Shown in pieces: positions 749 through 10,731 of a stretch of DNA of 10,731 bases. The position numbers and the translations under genes were made by a program. The stretch is from Planctomycetota bacterium (lineage in GTDB: Bacteria > Planctomycetota > Planctomycetia > Pirellulales > Pirellulaceae), in contig JAPLNJ010000507.1 of assembly GCA_026692885.1 (NCBI GenBank), positions 1 through 10,731 of the forward strand, in the 5' to 3' direction. How positions within the stretch are numbered: position 1 is the stretch's first letter; every line of letters begins with the position of its first letter. The notes below the pieces were generated by a model. That model searched no databases and was not told where the DNA came from. It worked only from the letters and a program-made list of their open reading frames with translations.

Positions 749-979
749 TCATTTGTGATACCGAGCCAACGCATCTGCCTTGACCTGCTCCCAGGGCACG
801 ACATCTTGTGGGTGCCTCTCGTGCTCCGCCACCCGACGTTCTAGTTCGTCCCGTTGCGCATCGCTGAGGTGCGCACGTCGTGGTTCGACGGCGATGCTAT
901 CCCAAATCTCATGTACGAGTGCGAGTCGATCCTCCACGCTGAGGCGATCGATCCCCAGAGCCTTCATCGTCGATGTCAT
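749..979 (-). CDS. Addiction module component family antitoxin (orphan)
   Basis: This 76-residue protein fits the 'putative addiction module component' family (TIGR02574 type): an N-terminal helix with LSVEDRLALVHEIWDSIAVEP, then LSDAQRDELERRVAEHERHP and a PWEQVKADALARY tail. Members are antitoxins that bind and neutralise a RelE/ParE-type ribonuclease or gyrase toxin. The start at 977-979 has AGGGAG just upstream on the minus strand, and the length is normal, so the gene looks intact. The toxin is normally encoded directly downstream, which here means below 749. No RelE/ParE-like reading frame is found there; the space is taken by the convergent oxidoreductase stub. It is therefore an orphan antitoxin, or the toxin gene has been lost. 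Such modules are usually autoregulated, but I see no clear operator. The 248 bases from 980 to 1227 hold no supportable gene. Confidence 0.8.
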   Translation of the reverse strand: MTSTMKALGIDRLSVEDRLALVHEIWDSIAVEPRRAHLSDAQRDELERRVAEHERHPQDVVPWEQVKADALARYHK

Positions 980-3720: not shown

Positions 3721-3759
3721 TGGTAAACTGGCGCTATTGAAGAGCCCCAACAGCGTTGG
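3721..3759 (+). promoter_or_regulatory. Possible extended -10 promoter and operator of the relB-like gene
   Basis: TGG-TAAACT at 3721-3729 fits an extended -10 box; no good -35 was seen. Some 20 bases on, CCAAC-AGC-GTTGG (3747-3759) is a short inverted repeat that runs into the ribosome binding site GGAG (3758-3761) of the antitoxin gene. Toxin-antitoxin operons are usually repressed by their own antitoxin at such palindromes. This is position-based inference only. Confidence 0.33.
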
Positions 3760-3770
3760 AGATTTCGAGC

Positions 3771-3998
3771 ATGAATGAGACTGCCATCCTGCGAGCGAAG
3801 GTCCCTGCTCGCCGCCTACAACGGGCTGAGAAAATCCTTCAGAAACTGGGCCTCACGCCAACCGACGCGGTAAACATGCTGCTGGCCCAAATCGAAATTC
3901 GACAAGGGTTGCCGTTCGAGGTCAGCGTCCAACCAAAGTCGCTCCTCACTGCGGACGAACAGGCGGCGGCCTGGACGGAGACCTACGGTGCCTATTGA
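3771..3998 (+). CDS. RelB/DinJ-family antitoxin
   Basis: Starting at the ATG at 3771 (GGAG at 3758-3761; a TTG at 3756 is less likely), the 75-residue protein opens MNETAILRAKVPARRLQRAE and continues KILQKLGLTPTDAVNMLLAQIEIRQGLPFEV. This is the ribbon-helix-helix DNA-binding and dimerisation part typical of RelB/DinJ: an N-terminal strand, the 'LGLTPTDAVNMLLAQI' helix pair and the 'GLPFEV' end. The C-terminal 25 residues (SVQPKSLLTADEQAAAWTETYGAY) would wrap the toxin. Family members repress their own operon and neutralise a RelE/YafQ-type mRNA interferase. The next ORF overlaps its end by 11 bases, but it is not a recognisable RelE toxin. Beyond that lies a transposase relic, so the toxin seems to have been lost or never present. 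Confidence 0.82.
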   Translation: MNETAILRAKVPARRLQRAEKILQKLGLTPTDAVNMLLAQIEIRQGLPFEVSVQPKSLLTADEQAAAWTETYGAY

Positions 3999-4909: not shown

Positions 4910-5740
4910 ATGGCTCGTAAGAAAGCGGCGAAACCGAAGACATCAAAGACCGCGATCGCCCCGCGACGGTCGCTGGACCAACTCGCAATTCCCATCGGCT
5001 ACGGCGAATTGTTGGACGAGATCAAGGGCCGCATTCGTTCGGCTCAGATCAAGGCTGTGTTGGCGGTGAATTCCGAGCTGCTCGTTCTCTACTGGAGCAT
5101 CGGTCGCGACATCGTTCAGCGCCAGCATCGCGAAGGCTGGGGCGCAAAGGTGATCGACCGATTGGCTGCCGACTTACGTTCGGAGTTTCCCGAGATGAGT
5201 GGACTCTCGCGAACCAACGTTTATCGCATGCGGGCCTTCTATCTGGCGTATGAGTCGGACGGTGAGATTGTCCCGCAGGCTGCGGGACAATTACGGCGTG
5301 CGAAGCGGCAGTCATCGAGCACCGAAATTCTCGCGCAGCCTGCGCGGGAATTGAATTCACCAATTTGGCCACCGGCGGTGGCCAAGATTCCGTGGTTCCA
5401 CAACGTCACCGACTTGAAAATGCGCTCGTCCGAGCCGGAGCACGCGGGCCAGATGAGCTTCTACCTGTCGGCGGTGGACGAGCTGCTGCGAGACCCGGTG
5501 GTGGATCAACCGACCCTCGGCCTGATCCTCTGCCGCGACAAGAACCGGCTGATCGCCGAATACGCCCTGCGCGACATCCACAAACCGATCGGCGTCGCCG
5601 GTTGGGAAACCAAGCTCGTCGAGTCGCTGCCCAAAGGCCTGCGCGGCAGCCTGCCGACGATCGAGGAACTCGAAGCCGAACTGTCCCGCGAGCCAGCGCC
5701 GGTGCAGCCACCGAAACGCCGGAGACGCACCGATGCTTGA
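4910..5740 (+). CDS. DUF1016/YhcG-family PD-(D/E)XK nuclease-like protein, internally deleted
   Basis: The ATG at 4910 has AAGGGG at 4897-4902. Residues 26-112 are the DUF1016 N-terminal domain ([65 protein letters not shown]). Residues 167-260 are the C-terminal part of the nuclease domain ([69 protein letters not shown]). Between them, PWFHNV (161-166) joins directly to TDLK, whereas relatives of about 340-380 residues have roughly 110 more here, including EQTIxxGWSRNVL and the GxxFYIDLLFYH strand with the first catalytic aspartate. The frame stayed open. I expect no nuclease activity, though DNA or partner binding may persist. Relatives usually sit in type I restriction loci, and the next ORF, an HsdM relic, overlaps its last 8 bases. 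Residues 119-150 carry two palindrome-encoded insertions. Confidence 0.85.
5267..5352. repeat. Two 25-base palindromes, 60 bases apart, inside the DUF1016 gene
   Basis: Bases 5267-5291 form a perfect palindrome: 12-base arms (ATTGTCCCGCAG) around one central base. Bases 5327-5351 form a second one of the same length and layout with one mismatch (ATTCTCGCGCAG against ATTCCCGCGCAG). The copies also resemble each other as direct repeats (GAgATTgTCcCGCAG / GAaATTcTCgCGCAG) and start exactly 60 bases, or 20 codons, apart, so both are read in the same frame, giving [10 protein letters not shown] and [10 protein letters not shown]. They lie in the linker between the two DUF1016 domains. Confidence 0.75.
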
Positions 5741-5965
5741 ACAACTCGACAACCGAAATCACTGCGTGGTCCGCGTGCTGGTCGAGAGGCTCGCGCCGTA
5801 CCAGGGGCGAGTCTACGATCCGTGCTGCGGCTCGGCCGGCATGTTCGTGCAGAGCCATAAATTCGTCGAAGAGCATGGCGGGCGCAGATGTTTGGCTGCA
5901 ACCTCGCGCTGCGTCACTGGATCCTTCGCAAAGCTGGATGGTTGGAGAAGCCAGAACAGTTCTAG
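5733..5965 (+). pseudogene. HsdM-type DNA adenine methyltransferase relic (type I restriction-modification)
   Basis: The ATG at 5733 overlaps the end of the DUF1016 gene (ATGCTTGA). The frame reads [10 protein letters not shown] and then [20 protein letters not shown] followed by [20 protein letters not shown]. The second part is the SAM-binding motif I region of N-6 adenine methyltransferases of type I systems (usual form [15 protein letters not shown]), which in intact HsdM lies well over 100 residues in. So the N-terminal part was deleted, and nothing of the NPPF catalytic motif follows. After about 5880 a different frame is open (5888-5965: [20 protein letters not shown]), unrecognised and ended by TAG at 5963-5965. 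The original frame runs on to 6044 with meaningless residues. No HsdS or HsdR sequence is visible. The fragment is non-functional. Confidence 0.62.
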
Positions 5966-6005
5966 TACTGCCGCTCCGATGCCGACTTCCAGCCCCCTTT
6001 TGCCT

Positions 6006-6036
6006 TTGACAAAAGCCGCGCAGTCCGCGGAAATCA
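6006..6036 (+). promoter_or_regulatory. Weak promoter candidate for the TIR-STAND operon
   Basis: A perfect TTGACA (6006-6011) lies 64 bases before the ATG at 6075. The best partner is AAATCA at 6031-6036, with a 19-base spacer, which is a poor -10 box. Between them is a short inverted repeat (CCGCG/CGCGG). I include it because this is the only sensible place for the operon's promoter: the upstream sequence is a dead gene. The start codon itself is preceded only by a purine-rich stretch (AGAAAGAAGA, 6061-6070), not a clear Shine-Dalgarno sequence. Confidence 0.22.
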
Positions 6037-6074
6037 CTCGTTAACCAAAAGAACTGAACGAGAAAGAAGACGTC

Positions 6075-7598
6075 ATGTCTCCTTTGCCCGACAACACGAA
6101 CTACGAGTACGACGTGTTCTTGAGTTACGCATGCGCAGAGAACGAGATTCCAGCAGGTGCCATGAAAGGTTGGGTGACGGTTTTCTTTGAGACGCTCAAG
6201 GCAGAACTCGGGAAGTCTGCATTGGGAAAGCGGATCGGCATTCGAGTCTGGTGGGACCAAACAGAAATTGATGGTTCGAAGCCTCTGCGACATCAGATCT
6301 TAGGCACACTGCCCAAGACTCGCTTGCTTGTCGTCTTATTGTCCCAGTCGTATCTGGAATCGGATTGGTGCCGCGATGAACGACAAGCGTTTATCTCCGC
6401 GATGAAAGACAGACCATTGGGAGACCAGCGAATCTTCCTACTCGATCTTGGCAATGTCGAGGAGAAGAGCCGCCCAGCAGAATTTCGAAACCTGGGCCTG
6501 AAAGGATTTCCATTTTACACATCAGACAAGCTGAAATTCGGCCATCCGGTCCCCAATGCGACATGGAACGAGCACCTACCGTTCTTCAAAGACTTGACGA
6601 AACTCGCCGAGAAAATCGCCGCTCGACTCGGTGAACTCGGCATACATGTGCCCCTTGCCAACCAGCGACCTGACGCGAAACCGGTTGCCACGGTTTACCT
6701 TGCTCAGACGACTGATGACCTCGATGATGAGCGAGAGGAACTAGCCAAAGATCTTGCTCAGCATGGTTTCCGAATACTCCCGGATGACGCGCTGCCGCTG
6801 GAGCAAGAAGGTTGTCGGCGAAAAATCTATCAATGTTTAGATGACAATCCAGCGGTGTTTGTGCAACTGATTGGTCCTCATGCTGGGAGAAGGTTTAAAA
6901 GCAGCGATGAGACCGTCGTAACGCTCCAATATCTCTGTGCCATCGAACGCTCGCCAAAGATCCCGATTCTGCAATGGCATGACAAAGTTGTCAGCATTGA
7001 CGGCATTCAACACGACCGCCTCAAGGCGTTGTTGTCCAATCCAGACGTTCGCACGGAACCACTTGAAGCTTTCAAAGCGGAAGTTCGTAACAAAGCGACG
7101 CCGCCGAAACCTAGGCAGGCGTTGCTTCAACACGGAGTGCAACACGCCGACTCGCAACCTAGAAAGTTGCCACCGGCCGTGTTTGTCCAAAGCGACTCCG
7201 TTGATCTGGCGGCCGCCGAGCAACTGTCAAAGCTGCTCACGCAACATCTGCACTTTCGCAGTGGGTGGTCCAAGAGCAGTGATGATCCTGATGAGCAGTC
7301 TGCTTATCGCGATATGCAACAGGAGTGGCTGGAAGACTGCGATGCCATCGTGCTCCTGCATGGAATCGCTAAAGCCGTCAAAATTGAGCAGTTGATTCAT
7401 CGTCTGTGGAAATTGGAGCAGAAACGCGACAAGCCACTAAGGCTGAAGATGCTCTACGTTGGACCGCCCAAAGACAAGATGCACGCAAGCGTGGGTGATC
7501 CGAACTTTGTTGAGATTGACTGCAGCCAGGACTCGGAATTGAACCTAGCCAAGCTCCAACTCGTCCTCGCGACGCTTTGGCAGGAGGATGCATCGTGA
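6075..7598 (+). CDS. TIR-domain protein with two further TIR/DUF4062-like modules
   Basis: This 507-residue protein has three modules. Residues about 10-185 are a TIR domain: YDVFLSYACAENE (12-24), IRVWWDQTEIDGSKP (56-70, BB-loop region), LLVVLLSQSYLESDWCRDER (84-103). In NAD-cleaving TIRs the glutamate of WCxxE is catalytic; here it is E102. Residues about 204-340 (ATVYLAQTTDDLDDEREELA, GFRILPDD, AVFVQLIGPHAGRR, IPILQW) resemble the DUF4062/TIR-like modules that often follow TIR domains in conflict systems. Residues about 367-505 (PAVFVQSDSVDLAAAEQLSK, WLEDCDAIVLLHG, LKMLYVGPP) look like a third flavodoxin-like fold. No membrane segment or signal peptide is seen. Its TGA overlaps the GTG of the STAND gene (GTGA, 7595-7598), so the two are likely translated together and act together, probably with this protein as effector or signal maker. 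The GC content is visibly lower than upstream. An antiphage role is inference. Confidence 0.9.
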   Translation: MSPLPDNTNYEYDVFLSYACAENEIPAGAMKGWVTVFFETLKAELGKSALGKRIGIRVWWDQTEIDGSKPLRHQILGTLPKTRLLVVLLSQSYLESDWCRDERQAFISAMKDRPLGDQRIFLLDLGNVEEKSRPAEFRNLGLKGFPFYTSDKLKFGHPVPNATWNEHLPFFKDLTKLAEKIAARLGELGIHVPLANQRPDAKPVATVYLAQTTDDLDDEREELAKDLAQHGFRILPDDALPLEQEGCRRKIYQCLDDNPAVFVQLIGPHAGRRFKSSDETVVTLQYLCAIERSPKIPILQWHDKVVSIDGIQHDRLKALLSNPDVRTEPLEAFKAEVRNKATPPKPRQALLQHGVQHADSQPRKLPPAVFVQSDSVDLAAAEQLSKLLTQHLHFRSGWSKSSDDPDEQSAYRDMQQEWLEDCDAIVLLHGIAKAVKIEQLIHRLWKLEQKRDKPLRLKMLYVGPPKDKMHASVGDPNFVEIDCSQDSELNLAKLQLVLATLWQEDAS

Positions 7599-10500
7599 AG
7601 GACACGACGTCCATATTAACGACACTCCATTACCCCTATCCCGGCATTCGTCCGTTTCGCCGTGACGAGGCGTATCTGTTCTTCGGACGCGACGAACAGA
7701 CCAAGTCGCTGTTGTTCCGGCTACATCGCGGTCATTTCCTAGCAGTAGTTGGAGCGTCGGGAAGCGGCAAATCGTCTTTGGTAAAGGCAGGCCTGATTCC
7801 CGAAATTGAAGCCGGTGGCTTGGGCACCGCCGGATCGGATTGGCATATCGCCGATTTACGACCGGGCAATTCGCCCTTGCTGAACCTTGCCCGGGGGCTC
7901 ATCCATAGCGGCTTTTTGGGAGACGATTGGCCGGATGATGATATTTCCCTCGGACTGCTGCTGTCGCGGTTGCAAGTCGGGCCTCGGGCGCTCATCGAAG
8001 TGTTGCACTCGGTCGCAATTCCCTCGCTTACAAACCTGCTGATCTTGGCCGACCAGTTCGAAGAAATCTTCCGCTTCTATACCGAACAGACGGCGAATGA
8101 AGCACTCAAATTCGTGAATTTACTCATGGCCACTGCCAAGGACCGAAACGTTCCGGTCTACGTCGTCATCACAATGCGTTCGGATTATTTGGGTGAATGT
8201 GCGATGTTCCCCGGCCTGCCCGAATTGCTCAACGACACACAATTCCTCTGCCCTCGCCTGACGCGAGACCAGATGACCGAGGCCATCGAACTTCCCGCGA
8301 AACTCTTTAGGAAAACGGTGGAGCCCGGGCTTGCAAGTCTTATGATCAACGACGTCGGAGTCAATGCCGACCAACTCCCCTTGATTCAACATTGCTTGGC
8401 AAGGATGTGGGAGAAGGCCGCTGAATTTCCCAGAGTGCCGACATTCAGTGAAAGCCCGCCCCAATTCCACCCGCAACCGCTGACATTGAACCGATACCGA
8501 CGTGAGCGGCTTGAGAAAAGTGGAGAAGAAGCCAAGGATCCAGCTGTATTCGTTGCTTTGTCACATCACGCCGACGAACTTCTCGATGAATTTCAGGATC
8601 CAGAATTGCTTCGTGTCGTTGAGCGAGTGTTTCGTGCCTTAGCAAGTCGAGGTCCGAGCGGCCAAATGGTCCGGCGTTCCGTCACGATCCGTCAACTTGC
8701 CCTAGAGTTGTCCCGAACGGCTGAATCTGACGAAGTGGACCGGATTGAGTCTCAAGTGATCATGGTCGTCAATGCATTCCGCGCTGACGGTCACAACTTT
8801 CTCATTCCGTCAGTATACGATTCGCCGACGCTTACGTCGGACACACTGGCTGACATCAGCCATGAATCGCTACTTCGGCAGTGGGTCACACTGAAGAAGT
8901 GGGTCGAGGAGGAATCTCGATCTGCTGCAATGTTTCGACGGCTTGCGGATACCGCGCGGCGATGGCAACTCGATGAAGCTGAGCTTCTCCGTGGACGCGA
9001 ATTGACTGCCATTCGAACCTGGCAAAAGAAAGAGCTTCCCAACAAGGCTTGGGCGAGTCGTTACGACGACGACTTCGATTTAGCATTCGAGTTCTTGGCG
9101 AAGAGTATTGAGGCAAGCCGAGACATAGACGTCCAAGAGAAAGTACAGCAGGAGGAAGTCCAGGAAGCTCAAACGGAAGCCGTTTTTGACGTTTTCCTGT
9201 CACACAATAGTGCTGACAAACCAGCCGTTGAGTATCTCGCCGACAGATTGGTTAAAGACCAAGGCTTACGCGTTTGGTTTGACAAATGGAATCTCGTTCC
9301 TGGTGCGCAGTGGCAAGTGGAAATCGAATCTGCAATCGAACAATCCGCGACCACCGCCGTTTTTATTGGGCCGAGTGGTTCGGGAGCGTGGTCCAATGAG
9401 GAGTTCTCGCTAGCGCTTCGCCGCGCCGTACGCTCACGAGACGGGTTTCGCATTGTCCCCGTCCTTCTTCCCGGAGCTAACGCTGAGTCCGTCCCCGATT
9501 TTCTGCAACTTTATACGTGGGTCGATTTTGGACAGGGCCTCGATAATCCTGAGGCATTTAACCGGTTGGTCGCTGGCATTCGTGGAGAAGCTTCCACATC
9601 GGAAGCGACTGAGCTACCAGACGAGCCCGCCCCATACCGCGGCCTAGCCGCTTTTGAGCCAAAGCATGCGGAAATCTTTTTTGGACGTGATGCAGAAACT
9701 GCGATGCTTGTGCGAGACTTGATTCGCAATCATTTCGTAGCGGTAATTGGACCATCTGGTTGCGGCAAATCATCTCTCGTCAAAGCCGGGATCTGGACAC
9801 AAGCGGCAGCCAAGCGACTCGAAAAGGAGAATCGTCCGCCCTTTTCCGAATGGAATGTTCTGACGATCAGGCCAGGCAGTAGGCCAGTGGAGTCCATGGC
9901 GATTGAGGTCGCGTCGCTGTTACAAATGCCTGAACAAGGAATTCGCCGTCTAGAACTTATACACCGGCTTGAGGAGACAATTCGACAGGAAGACAATGGA
10001 CTTCAGTCGGTGATGGCGAAGGTCGTCCAAGGCGACGGTCGTCCAACGGTGATCATCGTTGACCAATTGGAGGAATTGTTTACGCACGGGAATGACTCGC
10101 CAAGCGGACCAAACGACGCCCATCGTTTTATCGGCAATCTGATTGACCTCGTTCATCCCGGCAACAAGCAAGTCCATGTCATCATTACGCTTAGGTCGGA
10201 TTACTTAGCGCAATGTCTCGGGAATCGCGGCTTGGCGGGCCTTTTTCAGGATCATACGTTGCTGTTGGGACACCTCTCTCAGGAGTCTTTGCGTGAGGCT
10301 ATTGTTGCTCCTGCTCAAAGAGTCGGGGCTTATTTTGAGAGAGGCTTGGTGGAGCGAATGCTTGGGGACGTGAAAGACCAACCCGGTTCCCTTTCGCCGC
10401 TTCAGTATTGCTTGCTCGAACTGTGGCGTCGGCGGAGTGGATACTGGCTAACAATTCCGGCGTACGAAGAAATAGGAGGTGTTCAAGGCGCGTTGTCCCG

Positions 10501-10731
10501 ACGTGCAGATCGAGTTTATCAAGAACTCGATATGAAACAGCAATCCATCGCTCGCTCTGTCTTGCTAAGGCTAATTGGGATTAGTGCCGACACTAGGGAT
10601 TATCGACGTCGGGTAATGCGTCCCGAACTCTACTCGGCAGACCTACCTCGCGAAGAGGTTGATAGTGTTATTTTAAGACTTTCCCACGAAGCACTAGTTC
10701 TTTGCACAGATGAATTTGTCGAGATTACAAA
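7595..10731 (+). CDS. nSTAND1 NTPase - TIR - nSTAND1 NTPase fusion protein (3' end beyond the window)
   Basis: I translated the frame line by line: it is open from the GTG at 7595 to the window edge, 1045 codons without a stop. Module 1, residues about 12-460, is an nSTAND1 NTPase: YPGIRPFRRDEAYLFFGRDE, Walker A GASGSGKSS (53-61), Walker B LLILADQFEEIF (148-159), MRSDY (194-198), QLPLIQHCLARMW (260-272) and the closing ADISHESLLRQW (419-430). Module 2, residues about 528-662, is a TIR domain: FDVFLSHNSADK, LRVWFDKWNLVPG, and GAWSNEEFSLAL with likely catalytic E603. Module 3, from about 679, is a second nSTAND1: Walker A GPSGCGKSS (719-727), Walker B TVIIVDQLEELF (818-829), LRSDY (866-870), SLSPLQYCLLELW (932-944); the window ends just before its expected HEAL motif. 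Residues about 505-527 are a charged, Q/E-rich linker. STAND proteins are ATP switches that oligomerise on sensing a trigger. The sensor is not seen and may follow. Confidence 0.93.
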   Translation, partial: MKDTTSILTTLHYPYPGIRPFRRDEAYLFFGRDEQTKSLLFRLHRGHFLAVVGASGSGKSSLVKAGLIPEIEAGGLGTAGSDWHIADLRPGNSPLLNLARGLIHSGFLGDDWPDDDISLGLLLSRLQVGPRALIEVLHSVAIPSLTNLLILADQFEEIFRFYTEQTANEALKFVNLLMATAKDRNVPVYVVITMRSDYLGECAMFPGLPELLNDTQFLCPRLTRDQMTEAIELPAKLFRKTVEPGLASLMINDVGVNADQLPLIQHCLARMWEKAAEFPRVPTFSESPPQFHPQPLTLNRYRRERLEKSGEEAKDPAVFVALSHHADELLDEFQDPELLRVVERVFRALASRGPSGQMVRRSVTIRQLALELSRTAESDEVDRIESQVIMVVNAFRADGHNFLIPSVYDSPTLTSDTLADISHESLLRQWVTLKKWVEEESRSAAMFRRLADTARRWQLDEAELLRGRELTAIRTWQKKELPNKAWASRYDDDFDLAFEFLAKSIEASRDIDVQEKVQQEEVQEAQTEAVFDVFLSHNSADKPAVEYLADRLVKDQGLRVWFDKWNLVPGAQWQVEIESAIEQSATTAVFIGPSGSGAWSNEEFSLALRRAVRSRDGFRIVPVLLPGANAESVPDFLQLYTWVDFGQGLDNPEAFNRLVAGIRGEASTSEATELPDEPAPYRGLAAFEPKHAEIFFGRDAETAMLVRDLIRNHFVAVIGPSGCGKSSLVKAGIWTQAAAKRLEKENRPPFSEWNVLTIRPGSRPVESMAIEVASLLQMPEQGIRRLELIHRLEETIRQEDNGLQSVMAKVVQGDGRPTVIIVDQLEELFTHGNDSPSGPNDAHRFIGNLIDLVHPGNKQVHVIITLRSDYLAQCLGNRGLAGLFQDHTLLLGHLSQESLREAIVAPAQRVGAYFERGLVERMLGDVKDQPGSLSPLQYCLLELWRRRSGYWLTIPAYEEIGGVQGALSRRADRVYQELDMKQQSIARSVLLRLIGISADTRDYRRRVMRPELYSADLPREEVDSVILRLSHEALVLCTDEFVEIT

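Follow-up and report, generated by a model that had tools for sequence, protein, structure and literature searches.

Organization of the locus

The stretch of DNA analyzed here, hereafter the window, comprises 10,731 nucleotides of contig JAPLNJ010000507.1 from a Planctomycetota bacterium of the family Pirellulaceae (assembly GCA_026692885.1). At its 3′ end the window carries two overlapping genes, designated gene A and gene B, which are the subject of this work (Table 1). Gene B encodes a chain in which a TIR domain lies between two nSTAND1 nucleoside triphosphatase (NTPase) domains, referred to as the head and the tail. Gene A encodes a separate TIR protein, its presumed effector partner.

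The open reading frame (ORF) of gene B runs from TTG 7577 or GTG 7595 through position 10729 and, according to the ORF list, is free of stop codons up to the end of the window. GTG 7595 is the likely start, given the GTGA overlap with the stop codon of the upstream gene. The Pfam scan detected nSTAND1 (PF20703) in two stretches of the gene B product, with 591.1 bits in all at a cut-off of 27.1 and the best stretch at residues 680-1044. The central TIR_2 domain (PF13676) scored 91.4 bits at a cut-off of 28. The arrangement of a TIR domain between two nSTAND1 NTPases, proposed in an initial annotation made from the letters of the DNA, is thus borne out by matches above the cut-offs. Walker A motifs are located at residues 53-61 of the head and 719-727 of the tail, Walker B motifs at 148-159 and 819-830, and RSDY motifs at 195-198 and 867-870. 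The TIR domain contains the signatures WFDKWNLVPG (561-570) and WSNEE (599-603). Both full sets of NTPase motifs and the TIR signatures were placed correctly in the initial annotation, except that the second Walker B motif had been put at 818-829. The glutamate of WSNEE, E603, occupies the glutamate position of the WxxxE motif and is invariant in all four aligned proteins of the nSTAND1-TIR-nSTAND1 layout; from the TIR family we assume it to be catalytic.

In the AlphaFold2 (AF2) model of gene B, the predicted local distance difference test score (pLDDT) is mostly 80-95 over residues 11-516 and drops below 50 at 278-292. Foldseek placed ORC/Cdc6 first in its list for this model, followed by CED-4, NOD2, a regulator of the maltose system, presumably MalT, and Apaf-1, with Avs4 at rank 50; the template modelling (TM) scores, calculated against the whole query, were at most 0.21. 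By these matches, the model falls among the AAA+ and STAND ATPases.

Gene A lies directly upstream of gene B and was overlooked in the initial annotation. The N-terminal TIR of its product matches TIR_2 with 53.9 bits at a cut-off of 28 (Pfam), and the middle domain matches DUF4062 with 23.4 bits, just under the cut-off of 24.7. The AF2 model consists of three alpha/beta domains with a mean pLDDT of 80.2. Foldseek matches of this model in the PDB include the TIR domains of RPP1, RUN1 and AbTir, with low TM-scores against the whole query. The glutamate at residue 102, in the motif WCRDE (98-102), is invariant in all 26 rows of an alignment of the window protein with 25 of 38 upstream proteins, which were chosen because their match reached the start of the TIR. 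Also for this residue a catalytic role is presumed from the TIR family. The four-base overlap makes translational coupling of genes A and B likely, judged from the sequence. At L108, a locus related to the window, the equivalent junction is a four-base ATGA overlap.

Table 1. Coordinates of features in the window
Feature	Position	Strand	Basis or description
Gene A, 507 amino acids, presumed effector partner of gene B	6075..7598	+	TIR, DUF4062-like and third alpha/beta domain
Presumed catalytic TIR glutamate of gene A, residue 102	6378..6380	+	alignment
GTGA overlap, gene A stop and gene B start	7595..7598	+	sequence
Gene B, nSTAND1-TIR-nSTAND1	7595..10731	+	1045 residues visible; 3′ end past the window
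Head nSTAND1 NTPase, residues 12-422	7628..8860	+	Pfam, motifs
Recombination break, residues about 412-448	8828..8938	+	left side like P0005/P0004/P0007, right side like P0003
Helical linker of tandem proteins, residues 446-515	8930..9139	+	identity profile; modelled long helix 494-526
Central TIR, residues 533-659	9191..9571	+	TIR_2 match
Presumed catalytic glutamate 603	9401-9403	+	invariant in aligned layout proteins
Tail nSTAND1 NTPase, residues 680-1044	9632..10726	+	Pfam, motifs; cut by window end
Antitoxin-like gene	749-979	-	small gene
Antitoxin-like gene	3756-3998	+	small gene
YhcG/DUF1016 gene and following N6-methylase fragment	4910-6044		middle part of YhcG/DUF1016 missing from best match

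Relatives of the same layout

The first protein search with gene B scored 7995 candidates and gave 3131 matches, 120 of which were listed. Among the matches listed, the protein P0003 (1524 amino acids) shares 50% identity with gene B over 99% of the query and has the same domain order. By Pfam, it consists of nSTAND1, TIR and nSTAND1 domains followed by TPR repeats, and an apparent membrane helix was read by eye. The protein P0006 (1246 amino acids) begins within the head NTPase, contains the TIR and carries a patatin domain at the C-terminus (Pfam). A second search, with P0003 as the query, led to P0123 (1181 amino acids), which displays 73% identity to P0003 over 56% of the query. Of the linker, some 25 residues are preserved ahead of the TIR of P0123, and WD40 families are listed for this protein. 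Relatives of the same order were thus found, as the initial annotation had advised looking for: P0003, and P0006 with the head and tail shortened.

These relatives bear on whether two genes were joined by a sequencing or assembly artefact, for which it speaks that the window is a fragment in which the 3′ end is missing. The same order and the shared linker are seen in proteins from other sources, however, and the segment 9101-9650 contains no stop in the frame of gene B versus 3 and 14 stops in the other two frames. We give the artefact hardly any credence. The open frame and the relatives with the same domain order led us to reject frameshift, hidden stop and chimera; in particular, it is very unlikely that the segment from about 9120 to 9640 conceals a stop or frameshift, which according to the initial annotation would leave two ordinary genes.

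The usual STAND layout, as described in the accessible part of PMC12931631, consists of an N-terminal effector, a central NTPase and a C-terminal sensor. One NTPase per chain had also been given as the rule in the initial annotation, and the rule holds in our sample. Two nSTAND1 domains are present in only three of the 291 nSTAND1 proteins and ORFs examined, namely the window protein, P0003 and P0006, the last with an incomplete head. Ten further rows with two or three nSTAND1 pieces represent one domain split by the search, as is evident from the profile positions. When the protein database was searched with the P0003 junction alone, P0003 and P0123 were the only proteins obtained; P0006 was missed, so this search was not exhaustive. 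No tandem gene occurs at the 86 loci from a genome scan for gene B relatives, which covered the best 80 of 516 relatives. The locus L068 looked double and was rejected, being in fact a single domain in two pieces. The one locus on viral contigs carries one NTPase. No tandem gene was detected in 392 genomes of the phylum with two candidates scored per genome, where single NTPases were seen and no genome but the centre genome gave a match at E 1e-90. Among 170 genomes of the family of genome G317, with four candidates scored per genome, 13 had matches, at 16 places, none of them across both NTPases. Plasmid carriage was rejected, as there was no near DNA match and the 22 plasmid records with a protein match contained no tandem gene and none reached 80% coverage of the query. 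The nSTAND1-TIR-nSTAND1 layout is real but rare in the material searched.

The two-gene operon

The association of gene A with the head NTPase was studied in a sample of 107 loci, nearly all of them gathered as relatives of gene B, of which 99 gave nSTAND1 ORFs. After removal of three duplicates, 102 distinct nSTAND1 ORFs were obtained, 92 without and 10 with a TIR before the NTPase. A gene was counted as a relative of gene A if it matched by blastp with an E-value up to 1e-3, was on the same strand and ended between 60 bases inside and 700 bases before the NTPase domain. Such a relative is located directly upstream of 63 of the 92 ORFs without their own TIR and of none of the 10 with one (Fisher p 3e-5), where the class without TIR was judged on the TIR alone and may hold other N-terminal effectors. 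The distance limit is slightly stricter for the TIR-bearing ORFs because their NTPase starts later. Upstream sequence of at most 1500 bases was available for 12 of the 102 ORFs (11 without and 1 with a TIR), and the partner was still found for 6 of the 11. The match extends into the TIR part of gene A in 53 of the 63 cases.

The distances between gene A relatives correlate with those between the NTPases (r 0.92 for 49 pairs, formed by 48 loci and the window; reached in none of 5000 permutations), a value inflated by shared species history. For the window alone, the gene A distances track those of the head (Spearman 0.42, p 0.003) and not those of the tail (0.14, p 0.34). Comparison across the sample shows gene A and the head NTPase to be parts of a two-gene operon that is conserved and co-inherited.

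The genome regions nearest to the window head, L108, L109 and L110, all have WD40 repeats after the nSTAND1 domain. A relative of gene A is found upstream in L108, where it is intact, and in L109, where it is broken; L110 ends before the upstream gene. The window departs from these loci in that its head NTPase is followed not by WD40 repeats but by TIR-nSTAND1. The predicted TIR-nSTAND1 receptor fills the sensor slot of the NTPase of the two-gene operon. At L108:1833-3971 and L109:11315-14540, a TIR-bearing gene encoding 712-717 amino acids comes after the two-gene operon. The TIR-bearing gene after the L108 operon encodes TIR and SLOG cluster2, and at L109 the TIR-bearing gene is followed by a patatin-like gene, read by eye, which may be compared with the C-terminal patatin domain of P0006.

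Across L001-L107, the two-gene operon is distributed over cyanobacteria, acidobacteria, proteobacteria, verrucomicrobia and others. Its proteins gave only partial matches in NCBIfam (genes A and B) and PADLOC (genes A and B and four relatives). In the accessible parts of the literature examined, no name was found for an operon of TIR/DUF4062-like and nSTAND1 genes. The operon may represent a large defence family.

Separate origins of the two NTPases

The head and tail NTPases share 33% identity over 284 residues. A quick tree of 293 domains unites the tail NTPases of all four layout proteins in one clade, nested within a wider clade of 108 nSTAND1 domains, these four included, each of which follows a TIR. 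The heads of the window protein and P0003 are located within a set of 152 domains, none of which follows a TIR. In a careful tree of TIR plus tail NTPase, built from 34 rows of nearest neighbours, the clade of four proteins is supported at 100/100. The comparison shows that the central TIR and the tail NTPase can be assigned to a separate class of single-gene TIR-nSTAND1 proteins. A recent tandem duplication of the NTPases was rejected on account of the 33% identity between them and their separate clades.

The heads show a different picture. The careful head tree contains 33 rows, which are the nearest neighbours and the partial head of P0006; P0128 has a long branch and an odd letter make-up in it. 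The window head groups with the free-standing P0004, P0005 and P0007 at 100/100, and the heads of P0003 and P0006 are placed together elsewhere in the tree at 96/90. A single clade of the three heads was rejected, with a log-likelihood lower by 239 and a p of 2e-26 in the approximately unbiased (AU) test, and a clade of the window and P0003 heads alone was rejected as well (p 2e-71). The two head lineages are neighbours. P0004, which is closely related to the head NTPase (64% identity), continues into a TIR of another kind, which is not matched by the TIR of the window at E 1e-8. Therefore, a TIR may have been gained more than once in the slot behind this head NTPase.

The same division is seen in the sliding identity along the chain, a comparison from which the row of P0123 was left out as misaligned. 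Residues 11-190 of gene B share 78% identity with P0005 and 51% with P0003, whereas residues 461-515 share 29% with P0005 and 80% with P0003. The maximum chi-square test places a break between residues about 412 and 448, the observed value not being reached by any of 2000 permutations in all four tests; in two control pairs of heads it was reached by 177 and 1508 of 2000 permutations, respectively. Given the single clade of the tails, the split of the heads and the break near 412-448, the comparison shows an exchange of the head NTPase, in one direction or the other, with the linker, TIR and tail kept. Constraint contributes to the identity contrast as well as recombination, because the linker is the best conserved part of the chain, with 80% identity to P0003 compared to 57% for the TIR and 54% for the tail NTPase. 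By the same comparisons, the head and the tail of gene B derive from two different predicted STAND systems. The fusion of an NTPase unit to a TIR-NTPase unit, one of two origins offered in the initial annotation, is supported by the trees, the recombination break and the same-order relatives. The joint protein alignment placed head-only proteins on the tail and was not used for folding.

The other suggestion, a built-in dimer, supposes that both NTPases of one chain pack together and jointly gate the central TIR, with gene A as a bystander. The motifs kept in both NTPases agree with this, and the strong conservation of the linker relative to the TIR and the tail makes a fixed geometry of head and TIR probable. 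However, the head has been exchanged across lineages and the tail has not, a history that a fixed interface between the two within one chain would hinder. In addition, a gene-A-like TIR protein is usually encoded in front of heads of this class. We consider the built-in dimer unlikely.

Proposed mode of action

We propose that the locus is a two-gene STAND immune operon in which the NTPase half of one STAND system is fused to an entire TIR-nSTAND1 receptor from a different one, and that the whole would operate in two tiers. This proposal, which we rate as having an even chance of being correct, is based on the intact motifs, the same-order relatives, the trees, the recombination break, the co-occurrence with gene A and the GTGA overlap. 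A trigger would bind to the C-terminal sensor beyond the window, for which the TPR repeats of P0003 and the WD40 families of P0123 may serve as guides. The tail NTPase would then exchange its nucleotide and oligomerise. Assembly of the tails would bring the central TIR domains together, making them active as an NADase or as the producer of a signal, and would force the head NTPases into a ring by way of the helical linker. The head ring would recruit gene A and switch on its TIR. A single trigger would in this way set off one TIR enzyme in cis and a second in trans, resulting in suicide or signalling on phage infection. This picture of the trigger, the assembly and the enzyme activity is inferred from what is known of other STAND and TIR proteins.

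Several observations weigh against this proposal. In 10 of the 63 cases the gene A match covers the later domains only or a cut gene, and 29 of the 92 ORFs without TIR have no gene A relative in reach. The gene A closest to that of the window is at L007 and the closest head NTPase at another locus, L106, and the gene A context of the tandem layout is that of the window copy. The window ends inside the tail NTPase, leaving the C-terminal sensor outside. The quick tree unites the window and P0003 heads in one set of nine domains with a support of 0.74. In the AF2 model, the pLDDT is below 50 at residues 564-649, which belong to the TIR, and mixed in the tail. Finally, the predicted protein lacks a complete head in two of the three relatives (P0006 has a partial one and P0123 none), and P0006 has a shortened tail NTPase (profile positions 1-264 of 379) and has lost the TIR tryptophan. 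Given the state of P0006 and P0123, some copies of the layout may be decaying.

The exchange of heads also recalls another arrangement, in which the head NTPase no longer signals but attracts a phage inhibitor directed at STAND ATPases, and the TIR-nSTAND1 tail reports when the head is disturbed. Such an integrated decoy or guard would resemble those of plant NLRs, in which decoy modules are exchanged between lineages. Integrated decoys often lose activity. The head motifs of gene B are intact, however, and gene A, the usual partner of this head, is retained and overlapping; we regard the decoy as quite improbable.

STAND receptors such as Apaf-1, the NLRs and Avs are usually pictured as having one switch per chain and exchangeable ends. 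Tentatively, and with clearly less confidence than in the joint operon and receptor as such, we suggest that here the place of the sensor in one STAND receptor is taken by a second, complete STAND receptor, that a single trigger sets off two different TIRs, and that the NTPase switch itself has been exchanged between systems. If this holds, the locus, with its two intact switches one after the other, would illustrate how immune receptors of bacteria can be cascaded or drive two effectors, and would directly test whether STAND rings are able to nucleate one another.

Genomic setting

The G+C content of the window is 0.51-0.57 from position 6001 on versus 0.57-0.66 before. At third codon positions (GC3) it is 0.33-0.66 in gene B and 0.47-0.63 in gene A, compared to 0.72-0.77 in three flanking genes. 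The lower G+C content and GC3 of genes A and B therefore suggest their horizontal arrival. The best match of the YhcG/DUF1016 gene upstream of gene A lacks the middle part, with YhcG_C matching only from profile position 75. This gene is followed by a short fragment of an N6-methylase (profile positions 34-74 of 311). The two pieces are likely to be remnants of older defence genes adjoining the STAND operon. The small antitoxin-like genes belong to the Unstab_antitox and RelB families. The window also encodes an RR-HATPase protein, relatives of which, with 33-47% identity, occur in 37 of 392 genomes of Planctomycetota, the single phylum searched, with 2 to 5 candidates per genome; this hints at Planctomycetota as the lineage of the window.

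Remnants just upstream would also fit a gene B that is a by-product of recombination heading to decay, in which two STAND systems are fused with no selected joint function. The searches of 392 phylum genomes (two candidates scored per genome) and 170 family genomes (four per genome), the 86 loci and the 22 plasmid records with a match, all without a tandem gene, and the incomplete heads of P0006 and P0123 point in the same direction. Against this, the reading frames of both P0003 and the window copy remain uninterrupted for about 1000 residues and retain the motifs, at a mutual identity of about 50%. The layout has thus lasted, and the linker is strongly conserved. A mere by-product is, on balance, rather unlikely.

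Comparison with known systems

Swarozyc is an antiphage system of the DUF4062 family, a family of TIR-like NADases for which operons with other enzymes are also mentioned in the accessible part of PMC13174449. Gene A resembles it in its weak DUF4062-like domain, and TIR-type NAD chemistry is proposed for both. According to the same part of this source, Swarozyc is a DUF4062-AUX protein activated by the phage portal, whereas gene A has a canonical TIR in addition and is paired with a STAND protein. In the test for membership in Swarozyc, gene A remained below the DUF4062 cut-off (23.4 versus 24.7 bits). The pair of genes A and B is not described in the accessible part of PMC13174449. As to Thoeris, only weak, partial ThsB matches of 13.7-25.3 bits were obtained with PADLOC, no search for ThsA having been made.

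With Avs (AVAST), the locus shares a STAND NTPase, an enzyme effector and, in the relatives of gene B, a C-terminal repeat region. Avs proteins have one central NTPase and an N-terminal effector, going by the accessible part of PMC12931631, whereas the window protein has two NTPases and a central effector. No Avs model is among the 19 PADLOC families matched. Membership in Avs was rejected because of the two NTPases, the central TIR and the missing model match.

The accessible parts of PMC7159879 and PMC10907252 deal with related conflict systems and not with a tandem nSTAND1-TIR-nSTAND1 layout, and no description of this layout was found in the parts of the open-licence literature available. 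The family nSTAND1 was named in PMC8195603. In the accessible part of this source, a two-gene operon is also described that encodes a pair of nSTAND2 proteins, of which one is inactive. These two STAND NTPases are proposed to act together, the nearest idea of this kind among the sources examined. The nSTAND2 pair consists of two proteins of another STAND family, one inactive, whereas both NTPases of the window are nSTAND1 domains with intact motifs in one chain.

Two further classes each account for one part of the locus. The operon of TIR/DUF4062-like and nSTAND1 genes shares with the window gene A, the four-base overlap (L108) and the head NTPase, and differs in the WD40 repeats behind the NTPase of L108-L110. 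The tail of the window protein falls inside the class of STAND proteins composed of TIR, nSTAND1 and a sensor (PF13676 and PF20703 with WD40 or TPR), with the TIR directly before the NTPase; gene B differs from this class by the additional NTPase module and the special helical linker ahead of its TIR.

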